Below, one piece after another: positions 53,607 through 56,821 of a stretch of 64,000 nt of DNA (position 1 is its first letter; every line of letters begins with the position of its first letter). Below the pieces are notes generated by a model, which saw only the letters and a list, made by a program, of their open reading frames with translations, searched no databases and had not been told where the DNA came from. The position numbers and the translations under genes were made by a program. The stretch lies in contig JAAVFD010000028.1 in NCBI GenBank assembly GCA_014800945.1, forward strand, positions 1-64,000. The letters run 5' to 3'. The DNA comes from Barnesiella sp. Its GTDB lineage: Bacteria; Bacteroidota; Bacteroidia; Bacteroidales; Muribaculaceae.

Positions 53607-53677
53607 CATAAGTAGGGACAATGTGGTGTGCGATGTCCGGCATGTGAACGATTGCTTTTTTGGGGATATGTGCGGCA

Positions 53678-53721
53678 ATAGACGCTCCGGACGCGCTATC
53701 CTACGCCTCATCCTTTTCCAA
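53678..53721. repeat. REP-like repeat, short copy
   Basis: ATAGACGCTCCGGA (53678-53691) followed directly by CGCGCTATCCTACGCCTCAT. The same two ends occur at 54155-54273, where an extra 68 nt lie between them. Confidence 0.6.
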
Positions 53722-53780
53722 ACGGAGATGTCACGGGGCAGCAATACTTGATGAGAATTTGTTATCTCAAAAAAAAATGG

Positions 53781-53788
53781 TAAATTTG
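53781..53788 (+). promoter_or_regulatory. -7 element of the Abi_2 leader RNA
   Basis: TAAATTTG; transcription should start near 53794-53797, directly ahead of a hairpin. Confidence 0.55.
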
Positions 53789-53794
53789 CAGCAA

Positions 53795-53850
53795 CATACT
53801 TACCCCGCTTCCCGTAAGAACAGCGCGCTCAGGGTAAGTTTTTCTTTTTT
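53795..53850 (+). ncRNA. Candidate AbiF-type antitoxin RNA ending in a terminator hairpin
   Basis: Promoter-driven leader of about 55 nt. ACTTACCC (53798-53805) pairs with GGGTAAGT (53832-53839) and a T-rich run (TTTTCTTTTTT) follows immediately, as in an intrinsic terminator. A competing inner pairing CTTAC/GTAAG (53799-53803/53813-53817) exists. The ATG of an Abi_2-family remnant begins right after the T run. AbiF-type proteins are known to be preceded by a structured RNA acting as antitoxin; assigning this RNA to that class is inference. Confidence 0.5.
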
Positions 53851-54090
53851 ATGACACTACCACGTTACAATCAACCACAAATTTCAGTTGCTGAACAAAT
53901 AAGACTTCTGAAATCAGAAGGTCTGGTTTAGTACTATATCATGTCAATTCTGCTGTATTTTCTTCAAGCGGTCAATCCTCAGAATACATTTGCAGCCCGT
54001 TTCAGGTCTTTACTTGGTAAATATCCCAATGTTGATGTGTCAGCAATGGGTTTTCCAAATGACTGGCAAGATGAGAAACTGTGGCAGTAA
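53851..54090 (+). pseudogene. Abi_2/AbiF family abortive-infection protein, internally deleted
   Basis: Two coding scraps of one Abi_2-type gene remain. The first (53851-53931) reads MTLPRYNQPQISVAEQIRLL and five more residues, then a TAG; this is a typical Abi_2 N-terminus. The second (53941-54090) reads SILLYFLQAVNPQNTFAARF and ends SAMGFPNDWQDEKLWQ, then TAA, a typical Abi_2 C-terminus. The central part, which should be about 200-250 residues, is gone. A functional protein is impossible, but the leader RNA and its promoter are intact. Family recognition is from memory of the conserved ends. Confidence 0.7.
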
Positions 54091-54154
54091 AATATTCTTT
54101 TGCGTATCTGAGTTTATCGGCTTACAATAGTGTCCCCGTAGGGGATAAATTGAA

Positions 54155-54273
54155 ATAGACGCTCCGGAGTGAGCGTCCCGATAGTAGCGATGCGGGATGC
54201 GCTCCCTAAGGTCGCTTATCCGCACCGCTACCCTGACGCGCTATCTTGTGCGTCATTCTTTCAAAACAACCTC
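54155..54273. repeat. REP-like structured repeat, long copy
   Basis: Starts ATAGACGCTCCGGA and ends CGCGCTATCTTGTGCGTCAT plus TCTTTCAAAAC, matching the ends of the copy at 53678. It contains the hairpin GACGCTC/GAGCGTC (54158-54164/54171-54177). A smaller hairpin TCCCC/GGGGA (54133-54145) lies just upstream. Confidence 0.6.
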
Positions 54274-54325
54274 CGTCTATACCCGGTGCTACCCCTCTCT
54301 TATTCCCCAATTTAACACTCTGTGA

Positions 54326-54358
54326 TTTGGGAATATTATACATTTTGATGTACCTTTG
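54326..54358 (+). promoter_or_regulatory. Promoter of the large structured RNA
   Basis: TTTG at 54326-54329 and TACCTTTG at 54351-54358 with a 21-bp spacer. Start expected near 54364-54366. Confidence 0.65.
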
Positions 54359-54363
54359 CAGTG

Positions 54364-54680
54364 CTGCCCGCAAGCAGAGGCCCGGTTATGGGTTTTTGAG
54401 GGTGGGAAGCAGACATAACAGACAGCGTTTACTCGACGCTCTTTCTTGACGCATAGAAATCTGGCAGTTTCTAATTGGAGTCAAGAATGAGACAGACGGT
54501 AGATGCCTATGCGGATGTATATTATCCCTTCGCTGACTGGCGCGTGAGTGTCGCAGCGCAAGGTATATTATACATATATGCGTGAGGCCTCTGCAAGTTT
54601 GTCCGTTCTACTCCAATAGGCAAGCCAGAGCCTCTATGCGTGGAACGGGCAACAAGTATGGTTCTCACGCTCTCTTTTTT
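54364..54680 (+). ncRNA. Large structured non-coding RNA, about 315 nt, unrecognised family
   Basis: A promoter-to-terminator unit without a convincing ORF but dense in complementary segments. Hairpins are AGCGT/ACGCT (54424-54440) and UUCUUGAC/GUCAAGAA (54443-54450/54480-54487), the latter enclosing UAGAAA/UUUCUA (54454-54459/54468-54473). An arm AUGUAUA/UAUACAU (54515-54521/54569-54575) encloses CGCU-GAC/GUC-GC-AGCG. GAGGC-c-UCUG pairs with CAGAGCCUC (54584-54593/54626-54634). Inside that loop GUCCGUUC (54601-54608) pairs with GAACGGGC (54643-54650) beyond it, an H-type pseudoknot. GCGUGAG/CUCACGC (54580-54586/54664-54670) closes the 3' domain ahead of the T run. Either a trans-acting RNA or a leader of the P-loop NTPase gene 50 bp downstream. 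Confidence 0.65.
54664..54680 (+). terminator. 3' end of the structured RNA: terminator arm and T run
   Basis: CTCACGC (54664-54670), complementary to GCGTGAG at 54580-54586, is followed by TCTCTTTTTT. The terminator stem therefore closes the pseudoknotted domain and is not a short local hairpin. Confidence 0.55.
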
Positions 54681-54729
54681 AAAGAAGTAAAAAGCCAACG
54701 AAGTGAACCCGGCGGCATCTGGTAAAACA

Positions 54730-55149
54730 ATGAAAATATATCTTATCTATGGCGAGAGGGATTCCGGCAAAACCAATACTTGCGCTAAAATATTGAAATC
54801 CCTCATTGCATTAGGGGCATCAGTAAATTTCTATGAAACCTTCAAGTGGGAGGGCGATTTCAAAACTGTGACTGCCTTTCAGGGAAAAACAATAGGTATC
54901 TATTCGCCGGGCGACAGTAAAGCTCAGCTTCAGGCGGCAATCAATATGGGTAAAAACAAAGGTTGCGATATACTTATCGCAACAATCAGGAAAAATATTG
55001 CTTATAAGGATGTATTGGAAAAATGCGCAGCCAGATATCCTCAGGAATGGATGTATATAGAAAAAGGCAATAATGAGAATGAAATGGAGCGAATAGAAAC
55101 CCGGATGGCTCTTGAAATGCTCAATAAGATTTATACTGAAATTTTCTAA
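54730..55149 (+). CDS. Small orphan P-loop NTPase-like protein
   Basis: A 139-residue soluble protein that I do not recognise. From the ATG at 54730 it begins MKIYLIYGERDSGKTNTCAK, with a Walker A loop GERDSGKT at residues 8-15. A strand TIGIYSPGDSK near 53-63 and a hydrophobic strand ending CDILIATIRKN near 77-87 could supply Walker B-type and sensor residues. The C-terminus is helical (NEMERIETRMALEMLNKIY). The size and opening resemble minimal nucleotide kinases or MobB-like GTP-binding modules. It lies 50 bp after the structured RNA's terminator with no promoter box of its own, so expression probably depends on read-through. A TTG-type start nine codons earlier is less likely. Confidence 0.7.
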   Translation: MKIYLIYGERDSGKTNTCAKILKSLIALGASVNFYETFKWEGDFKTVTAFQGKTIGIYSPGDSKAQLQAAINMGKNKGCDILIATIRKNIAYKDVLEKCAARYPQEWMYIEKGNNENEMERIETRMALEMLNKIYTEIF

Positions 55150-55176
55150 TAATTGTATTATCAATTACTTACCAAA

Positions 55177-56760
55177 ATGAACATTGCAAAAAGACTCCTC
55201 GCTGTTATATTAACCTCCACTTCAATAATTATAGCATATCCACGACCTACTGATCTTGAAAACAGCATTTCATATACTGTTACTGCTACTATTGATGGAC
55301 TCAATTATACAATTGTAGATGGGAAAGCAGAAGTAAACAGCGGTACACCCGGAGAAGATGGTTTACTGACTATTCCTTCCAGTATTGATGTTGAGGGCAC
55401 GACTTATAAGGTTGAGAAAATTGGAGAAAAAGCATTTTATGGAAACTCAGCTATAACCCAGCTAATTATATCTGAAGGTGTAACTGAAATTGGTGATGAT
55501 GCATTCTATGAGTGCCGGAATATTACCGGAAGTCTAATAATTCCTGAATCTGTAAAAATCATTGGTAGTGCAGCATTCTATCACTGTGACGGTTTCACTG
55601 GATGCCTTAAACTACCAAGTTCAGTAAAAGCAATAGGTCGTGCGGCATTTTTCCTGTGTAGCTTTACCGGTACGCTTCATATTCCTGACAGTTTGACAAT
55701 AATTGAGGAAGGTGCATTTGGCGAATGTAGAACTTTTACCGGGAGTCTTATTATACCGGATTCCGTTACAGAAGTAGAAAAGTATGCGTTTTGTTTCTGT
55801 AAGGGATTAGCTGATACACTTACAATCGGACGGAATGTTCAGAGAATATGGAGTAATGCGTTTAATAATTCCGGATTTTCAACGATAATATCTTTATCAA
55901 CTATTCCGCCTGATATCCACTTTGATCTTTCTAACCCGAGCAGTGCACATCCTTTCTTTGGGTTATATCGTTCAGAATTATATGTGCCAGATGAAAGTTT
56001 AGATCTTTATAAAGAAGATGTTGGGTGGAGAGTGTTCAATTCAATAAATCCCCTGAGTAATCTTGGTAATATCAGTGCTACAGGAATTGCATTATCTCAT
56101 TCAGAAATTGAACTAATGGTCGGGGCTTCATTATCTCTTACAGCCACTATTGTCCCAACTGAAACTACTGATAAAACAATAATATGGAGTTCAAGTGAGG
56201 AAGAATATGCCACAGTGGATGCAAGCGGTTTGGTTACAGCAGTCAAGCCGGGAACCGCAACAATTACCGCGACTACATCCACCGGTCTCACTGCAAAATG
56301 TGAAATCACAGTGATTGCAGCGACAATCGATGCAACAGGACTGACCCTTAATATCGAAGAAGCGGAGATGATTGAAGGAAATACATTACATCTCATTGCA
56401 ACAGTTGCTCCTGACAACGCCTTAGACAAGACAATAAAATGGGTTTCAAGCGATATTTCTGTTGCTACTGTTGATGTAAATGGATTCGTGTCAGCAATCA
56501 AAGTCGGCAAAGCGACCATCACTGCTACTTGCGGTGAGTTAACAGCCACTTGCGAAGTGACTGTAACTGCTAAACAAACAGCGATTGATGGAGTGGATTC
56601 GGATTTTCAGGAAGCAGTGCGTATAGAAGGTAACAGTATTGTAGCGCCGGAGGGGAGCGTGGTGTATGACCTCAACGGAAGGAGAGTCAAAGCTACCAAC
56701 CTTGCAAAAGGCATCTACATTGTACGCCTCGGCAGCAAAGCTGTGAAAGTCAAGTTGTAA
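55177..56760 (+). CDS. Exported LRR (BspA-type) and Ig-like domain protein
   Basis: A 527-residue exported protein with an N-terminal signal sequence (MNIAKRLLAVILTSTSIIIA). Six or so BspA-type leucine-rich repeats span about 70-240 (EKIGEKAFYGNSAITQLIIS, then FYECRNITGSLIIPESVKII). Two bacterial Ig-like domains follow at about 295-375 and 385-465 (IIWSSSEEEYATVDASGLVT, KWVSSDISVATVDVNGFVSA). The C-terminal 50 residues are a sorting or anchoring tail (VVYDLNGRRVKATNLAKGIY). It is a smaller relative of the protein at 43780. It begins 27 bp after the P-loop gene and may be cotranscribed with it. Its Ig-like domains are repeated nearly in tandem. Confidence 0.88.
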   Translation: MNIAKRLLAVILTSTSIIIAYPRPTDLENSISYTVTATIDGLNYTIVDGKAEVNSGTPGEDGLLTIPSSIDVEGTTYKVEKIGEKAFYGNSAITQLIISEGVTEIGDDAFYECRNITGSLIIPESVKIIGSAAFYHCDGFTGCLKLPSSVKAIGRAAFFLCSFTGTLHIPDSLTIIEEGAFGECRTFTGSLIIPDSVTEVEKYAFCFCKGLADTLTIGRNVQRIWSNAFNNSGFSTIISLSTIPPDIHFDLSNPSSAHPFFGLYRSELYVPDESLDLYKEDVGWRVFNSINPLSNLGNISATGIALSHSEIELMVGASLSLTATIVPTETTDKTIIWSSSEEEYATVDASGLVTAVKPGTATITATTSTGLTAKCEITVIAATIDATGLTLNIEEAEMIEGNTLHLIATVAPDNALDKTIKWVSSDISVATVDVNGFVSAIKVGKATITATCGELTATCEVTVTAKQTAIDGVDSDFQEAVRIEGNSIVAPEGSVVYDLNGRRVKATNLAKGIYIVRLGSKAVKVKL

Positions 56761-56786
56761 TCAAACATCCGATTTAACTCTATATT

Positions 56787-56821
56787 ATCCCCGGAGCGGT
56801 CTTTGCTTCGGGGATTTTTTT
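56787..56821 (+). terminator. Rho-independent terminator before lysS
   Basis: ATCCCCGGAGC (56787-56797) pairs with GCTTCGGGGAT (56805-56815, one wobble) and is followed by a TTTTTT run. Confidence 0.85.

Follow-up and report, generated by a model that had tools for sequence, protein, structure and literature searches.

Muribaculaceae are common in the mouse gut, and little is known of their RNA regulation. Bacteroidales are known to have UpxY, and antitermination of the UpxY and LoaP type acts on long operons. Among RNA architectures, paranemic motifs belong to RNA nanotechnology, and the OLE, ROOL, and GOLLD families are in Rfam. These three RNAs are reported to assemble into homo-oligomers made of RNA alone, through kissing loops (PMC12286853). 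The HMP-PP riboswitch is reported to have an aptamer embedded in a terminator (PMC6478431), and 2 candidate RNAs from Bacteroidetes, HMP2_4205 and HMP2_1032, are described as palindromic and terminator-like, with lengths of 132 and 106 nt, respectively, and are reported there near TPR and TonB genes (PMC8040213).

We analyzed a stretch of 64,000 nucleotides from Barnesiella sp. (Muribaculaceae; assembly GCA_014800945.1, contig JAAVFD010000028.1, positions 1 to 64,000 of the forward strand), hereafter the window, in which an earlier note had placed a pseudoknotted RNA as a leader 5' of an NTPase gene. This placement holds. The RNA is 1 copy of a leader family that is absent from the RNA family library searched (Rfam), and it probably controls whether the genes downstream of it are read.

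Leader RNA, promoter, and putative terminator at the locus

The following features were identified at the locus.

54326..54358, + strand: promoter TTTG-N21-TACCTTTG, which we take to be of the Bacteroidales type, from sequence and column conservation; it begins the conserved unit
54364..54680, + strand: structured leader RNA of ~315 nt, from homologues, minimum free energy (MFE), and covariation, with its start predicted from the promoter
54671..54680, + strand: U-tract directly 3' of stem P4, a putative intrinsic terminator that encloses a large domain
54730..55149, + strand: downstream gene for a 139-aa P-loop NTPase (11 such genes, spread over 9 of the 198 family genomes)

The promoter, the structured RNA of ~315 nt, the GC stem with its U-tract, and the P-loop NTPase gene 49 nt later, all proposed in the earlier note, are present in the sequence. 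TTTG lies at 54326-54329 and is followed, after a 21-nt spacer, by TACCTTTG at 54351-54358, with TA and TTTG of the second box each at least 0.9 conserved across the columns of 68 aligned copies. The stem 54580-54586/54664-54670 is followed by TCTCTTTTTT at 54671-54680, and the NTPase ATG lies at 54730, 49 nt 3' of the U-tract. Conservation in the 68-copy alignment spans the promoter through the U-tract and continues more weakly onward to the ATG, and by eye the U-tract region is U-rich in most of 58 aligned copies. The putative terminator at 54671-54680 was absent from a simple terminator scan with a loop limit of 8 nt; P4 encloses 75 nt, which is unusual in an intrinsic terminator. As had been proposed, the RNA is structured beyond chance, with an MFE for 54364-54684 of -137.1 kcal/mol where 100 dinucleotide shuffles average -96.0 (z -8.1), and its homologues covary in P4 and P5 (values listed below).

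No gathering-score Rfam match was found in the whole window, and a search of 53700-55300 at E values up to 5 returned SNORD115 and SAM-II only, both sub-threshold and outside the RNA. Rfam 15, including T-box and known riboswitches, gave only 1 RNase P and 2 tRNAs at 20 loci with copies or parts of copies. With no match to the leader RNA, a known Rfam family was rejected as its identity, in agreement with the earlier remark that it matches no familiar one. Searches of open-licence PMC papers returned no description of the leader RNA.

Distribution of the leader family

A blastn search with 54340-54700 identified 8 places in the window's own genome, 2 of which belong to a single copy; within the genus, 26 of 34 genomes matched, own included. 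A covariance model, R1, was built on the 3' domain of the RNA (E-values of both covariance models are rough). In the own genome, it scored 11 matches above 60 bits along with 8 weaker rows, 5 of which are antisense echoes of the same hairpins. Across the family, R1 matched 180 of 198 genomes, representing 29 of 30 genera; each matching genome had 1 to 18 matches, some of them antisense echoes of one hairpin. In a sample of the order, 52 of 295 genomes matched at E <= 1e-4 (4 from the own family, own genome included), of which matches near 1e-5 may be chance, and near full-length copies were identified in other families of the order (L128, L131, and L133). Only the own genome matched at 1e-6 in a phylum sample of 296 genomes, where stricter filters apply above 40 genomes. 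The multicopy nature of the family was not visible from one window.

A DNA pattern search found at least 119 stretches; among the 80 matches listed, titles were mostly Muribaculaceae or Bacteroidales, and carriers included isolates 104 (HZI) and 002 (NCI) and Heminiphilus faecis AM35. Listed titles of other phyla (e.g., Paenibacillus and Lachnospiraceae) are presumably metagenome bins that were wrongly titled. Plasmid, phage-record, and E. coli sequences had no blastn match to 54413-54684 or 54340-54731. By an exact 25-base pattern, a single IMG/VR contig was retrieved, which is classed as viral and has a copy at L254 5653-6049; the contig also encodes a terminase large subunit (phrog_2) and an LRR-like protein (labeled by eye). 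Judging from L254, the leader-gene unit may travel with prophages.

Conserved fold and covariation

The fold comprises 2 hairpins joined by 3 long-range helices, with massive covariation, and its elements are as follows.

54425..54506, + strand: 5' domain, helix P1, 54425-54433/54498-54506 (95.8% paired; z 3.2)
54425..54506, + strand: 5' domain, helix P2, 54443-54448/54482-54487 (93.5% paired; z 4.9)
54425..54506, + strand: 5' domain, helix P3, 54456-54459/54468-54471 (79.0% paired; z 0.0)
54449..54481, + strand: arm R, which pairs with R' (54610-54641) via Ka, Kb, and Kc
54610..54641, + strand: partner arm R', inside the 3' domain
54449-54455/54635-54641, + strand: long-range helix Ka (covariation z 120)
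54460-54466/54623-54629, + strand: long-range helix Kb (covariation z 98; last pair unformed in the window copy)
54474-54481/54610-54617, + strand: long-range helix Kc (covariation z 105)
54580..54670, + strand: 3' domain, helix P4, 54580-54587/54663-54670 (99.1% paired; z 14.7)
54580..54670, + strand: 3' domain, helix P5, 54599-54608/54643-54652 (99.3% paired; z 29.8)
54580..54670, + strand: 3' domain, helix P6, 54618-54621/54630-54633 (98.7% paired; z 24.9)

The helices come from RNAalifold, run on 68 of the copies that were then used for scoring, and from inspection by eye. Across 56 sequences, the 63 proposed pairs of the 9 helices are standard in 94.2% of cells. Double-change cells number 437, compared to 136 after shuffling and 45-89 when partners are shifted by 1-3 columns. 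Because related sequences inflate double-change counts and the 189-copy alignment includes relatives, we used a tree-based null in which each column's substitutions are re-placed on the branches of the 189-copy tree (own script in the manner of R-scape, with 20 simulations for the pair scan and 60 for helix sums). Under this null, 14 of 75,078 column pairs reached E<0.05, all of them in Ka, Kb, and Kc, and no single pair in the local stems did so at E < 0.05. The RNA has a conserved fold with compensatory changes, as a leader should, and these occur in homologues at P4 and P5, helices that had been listed before. P1, P2, and P3 are conserved rather than covarying; P3 is nearly invariant, although just 14% of the larger alignment has a standard pair at its last position.

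Along one hairpin the order is Ka, P3, Kb, P3', Kc, and along the other it is Kc', P6, Kb', P6', Ka', which in this reading is the pattern of a paranemic contact. An overlap of 2 bp occurs at the P2 junction, and a further contact, 54430-54433/54655-54658, has a z of 8.1. A conserved local hairpin, AGCGUUUACUCGACGCU, was also observed at 54424-54440 (90-98% standard pairs); it is a possible alternative to P1, and its loop could pair with 54498-54503.

The pseudoknot drawn in the earlier note was half right. Its exact stem, 54601-54608/54643-54650, is present as part of the 10-bp helix 54599-54608/54643-54652, whereas its inner stem, 54584-54593/54626-54634, stands in one half only: 54584-54588/54630-54634 is conserved (96-99% standard pairs, nearly invariant, with no clear covariation) but excludes part of P4 and P6, stems that do covary, and 54590-54593/54626-54629 forms standard pairs in 62-98% of copies and does not covary. 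The strongest elements, the helices of 54449-54481/54610-54641 and the conserved hairpin 54694-54716, had not been described.

Exclusive pairing partners and possible read-through

Three further features involve the strands around P5 and the tail of the leader.

54485..54608, + strand: alternative helix 54485-54496/54599-54608, exclusive with P5 and part of P2
54694..54716, + strand: hairpin P7 (GCC...GGC), between the U-tract and the start codon (z 4.0; 81-87% standard pairs)
54660..54709, + strand: P8, 54660-54664 (beside P4) with the P7 loop 54705-54709 (z 9.9)

Strand 54599-54608 covaries with 2 mutually exclusive partners, in P5 (z 29.8) and at the centre of the alternative helix (54491-54493/54601-54603, three pairs, z 33.0), the remainder of which comprises 54495-54496/54599-54600 (z 9.2) and 54485-54489/54604-54608 (z 3.5). 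Such covariation with 2 partners suggests a strand-exchange switch. A switch through shared strands had been proposed in the earlier note, and shared strands do exist, but the one backed by covariation is 54599-54608, pairing with 54643-54652 or 54485-54496, and not the proposed overlap at 54584-54586.

The full rod, which is the pseudoknot-free MFE structure, was rejected as the alternative state, since only parts of it covary against the tree-based null, with z values of -0.5 to 0.8 for 54499-54513/54581-54594, -0.3 for 54425-54428/54667-54670, -1.3 for 54438-54441/54647-54650, and 2.7 for 54443-54446/54642-54645. The contested rod arms held 81 double-change cells against 17.7 shuffled and 7-30 with slid partners, and the rod would not clearly remove the GC stem before the U-tract.

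P7, based on an alignment of 116 tails (45 of them listed), and P8 were both drawn after inspection of the alignment. The copy's own P8 complement was found in 72 of 168 copies, compared to a permutation mean of 31.5 (sd 3.9; 0 of 2000 permutations reached 72), and where the flank departs from GGCUC, a matching complement was present in 31 of 82 against 5.7 expected from other copies. The P4-flank variants AGACC (0 of 6), GATTC (0 of 5), and AGCTC (0 of 3) were without a complement in P7, and the signal was weaker when looser segments were compared by energy (own -10.5 vs -8.8 kcal/mol; own best in 12 of 184). As the P8 pairs span the U-tract, they can form only in RNA that extends past it, and since P8 covaries across the U-tract, read-through RNA seems to be selected.

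Position before genes and kinds of downstream gene

A cis-regulatory leader should have a conserved position before a same-strand start codon, and an ATG ORF of at least 60 codons was identified within 150 nt in 160 of 186 copies, compared to 1752 of 3920 random positions (many intragenic) and to 64 of 177 when the divergent upstream side was scanned; the other 26 copies had no ATG ORF of 60 aa within 150 nt. The ORF started 50-75 nt past the terminator stem in 108 of the 186 copies vs 7.6% of random positions. These 186 are non-redundant copies with at least 300 nt of downstream sequence, from a copy search of 239 sequences (254 loci, with 23 excluded as overlaps or doubles, 7 put back, and the window added) that gave 238 matches above 100 bits, 222 with a recognisable terminator, and 196 after near-duplicate removal. 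Placement of the terminator end was wrong in some copies (e.g., L003, L006, L007, and L085), giving a false second distance peak at 14-18 nt. In the own genome, 10 of 11 copies had a same-strand ORF within 260 nt (ATG, GTG, or TTG start; 50 codons or cut by the contig end), and the eleventh, L005, had an ATG at the expected place with a frame of only ~25 codons.

A common downstream pathway was not found. Downstream proteins were limited to ATG distances of 48-79 nt (n=116), of which 113 were family-searched (three short ones excluded) and 111 were clustered, yielding 74 clusters, 60 of them single. They included BspA-type LRR proteins, lipoproteins, CsgG-like proteins, a glycosyltransferase, TerB-like proteins, and unknown proteins, and the family scan of the 113 identified 13 BspA-type LRR_5, 4 DUF4595, 4 CsgG, 3 DUF6567, and 2 TerB. 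Among the 50 Pfam families found, 37 match one downstream protein each; in the count-sorted best 25 of 50 Pfam and 25 of 45 NCBIfam families, 13 of the 25 Pfam families match more than 1 protein. Signal peptides were predicted in 40 of 54 downstream proteins of at least 200 aa vs 175 of 430 control ORFs, by a crude rule with tallies taken from fractions and with open frames of unchecked gene status as controls. A link to defence was rejected: PADLOC matched 7 families, each to one of the 113 proteins, and the window NTPase matched PADLOC mad8 weakly (E 4.7e-4). With no pathway common to the downstream genes, no ligand suggests itself.

In the window, the NTPase gene is followed after ~28 nt by a gene at 55177-56760 for a BspA-type LRR-like protein with Ig-like repeats (labeled by eye), without a leader of its own; this kind often follows the leader elsewhere (13 of 113).

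Leader identity did not follow kinship of the downstream genes (0.708 vs 0.693 permuted, sd 0.011; 178 of 2000 permutations as high), in a test that may be saturated, all leaders being ~70% alike. Joint inheritance of leader and gene was rejected, as this permutation gave no signal for it.

With moderate confidence, we favor the reading that the RNA acts in cis as an attenuator-type leader, and that in Bacteroidales it serves a large and fast-changing regulon whose accessory genes often encode exported proteins. The reading is supported by the multicopy family, the constant position of the leader, conservation up to the ATG, P8, the two-partner covariation, and retention of the leader by the NTPase genes; P8 with its covariation across the U-tract is sensible only if read-through RNA matters. 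Counted against an attenuator are the downstream genes without a common pathway, the rod arms that do not covary, the 75-nt P4 loop, the P4-flank variants without a complement, the 26 of 186 copies with no nearby ORF, and the scoring of helices on the copies from which they were drawn, together with leader sequences that do not track gene kinship, as would be expected of merely convenient promoters.

Own-copy matching of the loops

The R-R' duplex had a mean energy of -24.9 kcal/mol within the own copy vs -11.0 with the partner of other copies (energies computed without tree correction), and the own R' beat 40 random others in 154 of 184 copies, with no difference for a control segment. In a same-genome test on seven genomes, the own partner was best in 38 of 39 copies, and 12 of 234 cross pairs also reached -20 kcal/mol, a level reached or exceeded by the own duplex in 183 of 188 copies. 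Entropy was 1.16-1.44 bits in Ka and Kc, 1.42 in the spacer, 0.67-0.69 in Kb, and 0.13-0.64 in the stems; being near that of the spacer, the values for Ka and Kc indicate a sequence that is free provided that pairing holds. In 5 of 188 copies, R and R' were mismatched (L085, L088, L135, L218, and L223), and L218, L088, and L135 share an identical 5' Ka strand; recombination between copies and assembly chimeras are candidate readings of these 5.

Own-copy matching fits pairing within one molecule or between identical molecules. An unlikely alternative is a free-standing structured RNA with a function of its own (self-assembly or protein binding), ended at the U-tract and with the gene carried along; in one variant, the loop-loop helices could form between 2 molecules of the same copy, explaining the self-only matching. 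The RNA does have its own promoter and U-tract, its arms prefer their own partner, and covariation fits intra- and intermolecular pairing alike, with a precedent in the kissing-loop homo-oligomers of OLE, ROOL, and GOLLD (PMC12286853). However, pairing inside one molecule predicts own-copy matching equally. The constant spacing to the start codon, the conserved sequence that reaches this codon, and the P8 pairing that spans the U-tract all count against a free-standing RNA.

The P-loop NTPase gene and its surroundings

The neighborhood of pncB was compared in 21 relatives. In 4 of these (L269-L272), lysS lies directly after pncB with 0.1-0.3 kb between them, and a fifth (L268) has a different leader-gene unit at the pncB-lysS site; the other 16 had no lysS match within the stretch fetched beside pncB. 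Compared with L269, the window has ~3.2 kb extra, at about 53621-56810. This site, empty in 4 of 21 relatives and differently filled in a fifth, is what would be seen if the unit were a mobile promoter-leader cassette that expresses newly acquired genes and offers homology for cargo swaps, its fold mainly protecting mRNA. The 74 clusters among 111 downstream proteins, the leader identity that does not track the gene, and the 5 of 188 copies with mismatched halves, as recombinants would show, agree with such a cassette, but mRNA protection needs neither the two-partner covariation nor P8, and we consider this explanation improbable.

In L268, repeats of about 80-90 bp (...GTAGGGACATGATGTATCATGTC...) were seen by eye to lie in tandem between pncB and the leader copy. 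At 53798-53925 in the window, an inverted repeat (ACTTACCC at 53798-53805 and GGGTAAGT at 53832-53839, then a T-run) was also noted by eye; 53798-53925 had no Rfam match. An ATG frame from 53851, in the gene labeled a decayed AbiF in the earlier note, stops by eye after 26 codons, and this putative broken AbiF-like gene relates to the RNA by neighborhood only.

The NTPase family is ~140 aa long with a motif that we take to be Walker A. Its Pfam matches were weak only (AAA/ATPase), sequence searches returned mostly general P-loop proteins (RecA and SRP/FtsY), weakly, and a single-sequence AlphaFold model had a mean pLDDT of 41. Among the 11 homologous NTPase genes, the window's included, 9 lie directly 3' of a leader copy, although in L257 the copy is matched by its 3' part only and in L263 the gene has an in-frame stop. 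In L260, a leader copy lies ~800 nt upstream on the same strand, and in L262, the gene is 64 nt from the contig end, so its upstream side is not judgeable. Only 3 of the 111 clustered downstream proteins (W, the window's own, L224, and L053) are this NTPase, with further cases outside that set. With 9 of the 11 lying right behind a copy, the NTPase gene nearly always has the leader. The leader mostly serves other genes. The RNA and the NTPase gene, whose constant association the earlier note proposed to tabulate, are not always together. On the breadth of downstream genes, its NTPase-specific riboregulator was rejected. A dedicated RNA-protein unit of leader RNA and NTPase, also proposed there, is very improbable despite the 9 of 11 genes that follow a copy, as the same RNA precedes many unrelated genes and most sampled RNA carriers lack the NTPase (RNA in 180 and NTPase in 9 of 198 genomes).

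Proposed mechanism

The sequence comparisons show the family itself, its position 5' of same-strand genes, the pairings of Ka, Kb, Kc, P4-P6, and P8, and covariation of one strand with 2 exclusive partners. For the attenuator-type leader, we infer the transcript start, termination, read-through, folding order, the switch and its signal, and cis regulation of the gene from sequence. In a portable promoter-plus-leader unit, transcription would begin a few nt 3' of TACCTTTG; in cultured carriers, transcript starts are predicted directly 3' of TANNTTTG. The 5' domain (P1-P3) would fold before the 3' domain, and the emerging 3' loop strand would zip onto the 5' loop via Ka, Kb, and Kc, locking the halves of the molecule. 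Strand 54599-54608 could first sit on 54485-54496, where it would extend Kc, and 54643-54652 could then take it over as P5, which would complete a compact P4-P5-P6 domain just 5' of the U-tract. If P4-P6 were complete with the polymerase on the U-tract, transcription would terminate and a 315-nt RNA would be released; if incomplete, the polymerase would read through into the gene. In read-through RNA, P7 would dock via P8 on the P4 flank and may tune translation. Candidate signals for the switch are a ligand, a protein, or RNA polymerase pausing.

A fuller version of the attenuator reading, which we put forward only tentatively, takes the paranemic, self-zipped hairpins with their 3 self-matching helices as a private lock for nearly every copy in a genome. 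The lock would time the exchange of 54599-54608 that decides termination, P7 and P8 would add a second control, and the whole would be a general-purpose switch for newly acquired genes across Bacteroidales.

If the attenuator reading is true, one leader family in 180 of 198 genomes would be a major unrecognised regulatory layer for accessory, often exported proteins. The architecture is statistically strong, with its self-matching loops, 3 inter-hairpin helices, two-partner strand, and read-through docking hairpin. If the leader marks accessory genes, it would also help to find accessory functions not yet described, that of the orphan NTPase among them.

Comparison with known systems

UpxY and LoaP-type processive antitermination is comparable in that its factors influence elongation within leader regions, and differs in its long target operons. 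In the manner of paranemic motifs, it has 2 hairpins with inter-hairpin helices alternating with intra-hairpin stems, and no strand threading is needed; unlike the nanotechnology motifs, it is natural, has 7, 7, and 8 bp between the hairpins and the 4-bp P3 and P6 within them, and is read from aligned copies.

Covarying loop-loop contacts in a compact bacterial RNA are also a feature of OLE, ROOL, and GOLLD (PMC12286853). Membership in these families was rejected, as no match in sequence and structure appeared in the Rfam search; unlike them, the leader has no Rfam match, is multicopy, and is tied to a downstream start codon. HMP2_4205 and HMP2_1032 are about the size of the leader's 3' domain and could overlap it, as compared by description (PMC8040213); the reverse strand of the 3' domain weakly matches its own model, R1.

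Another likeness is to riboswitch and attenuator leaders and especially to the HMP-PP riboswitch, which also has a structured 5' leader with a conserved core and a conserved domain inside the stem that precedes the U-tract (PMC6478431). Unlike such leaders, the RNA described here is ~315 nt long, often occurs in several copies per genome, and has no common downstream pathway, and its conserved part continues past the U-tract to the start codon.
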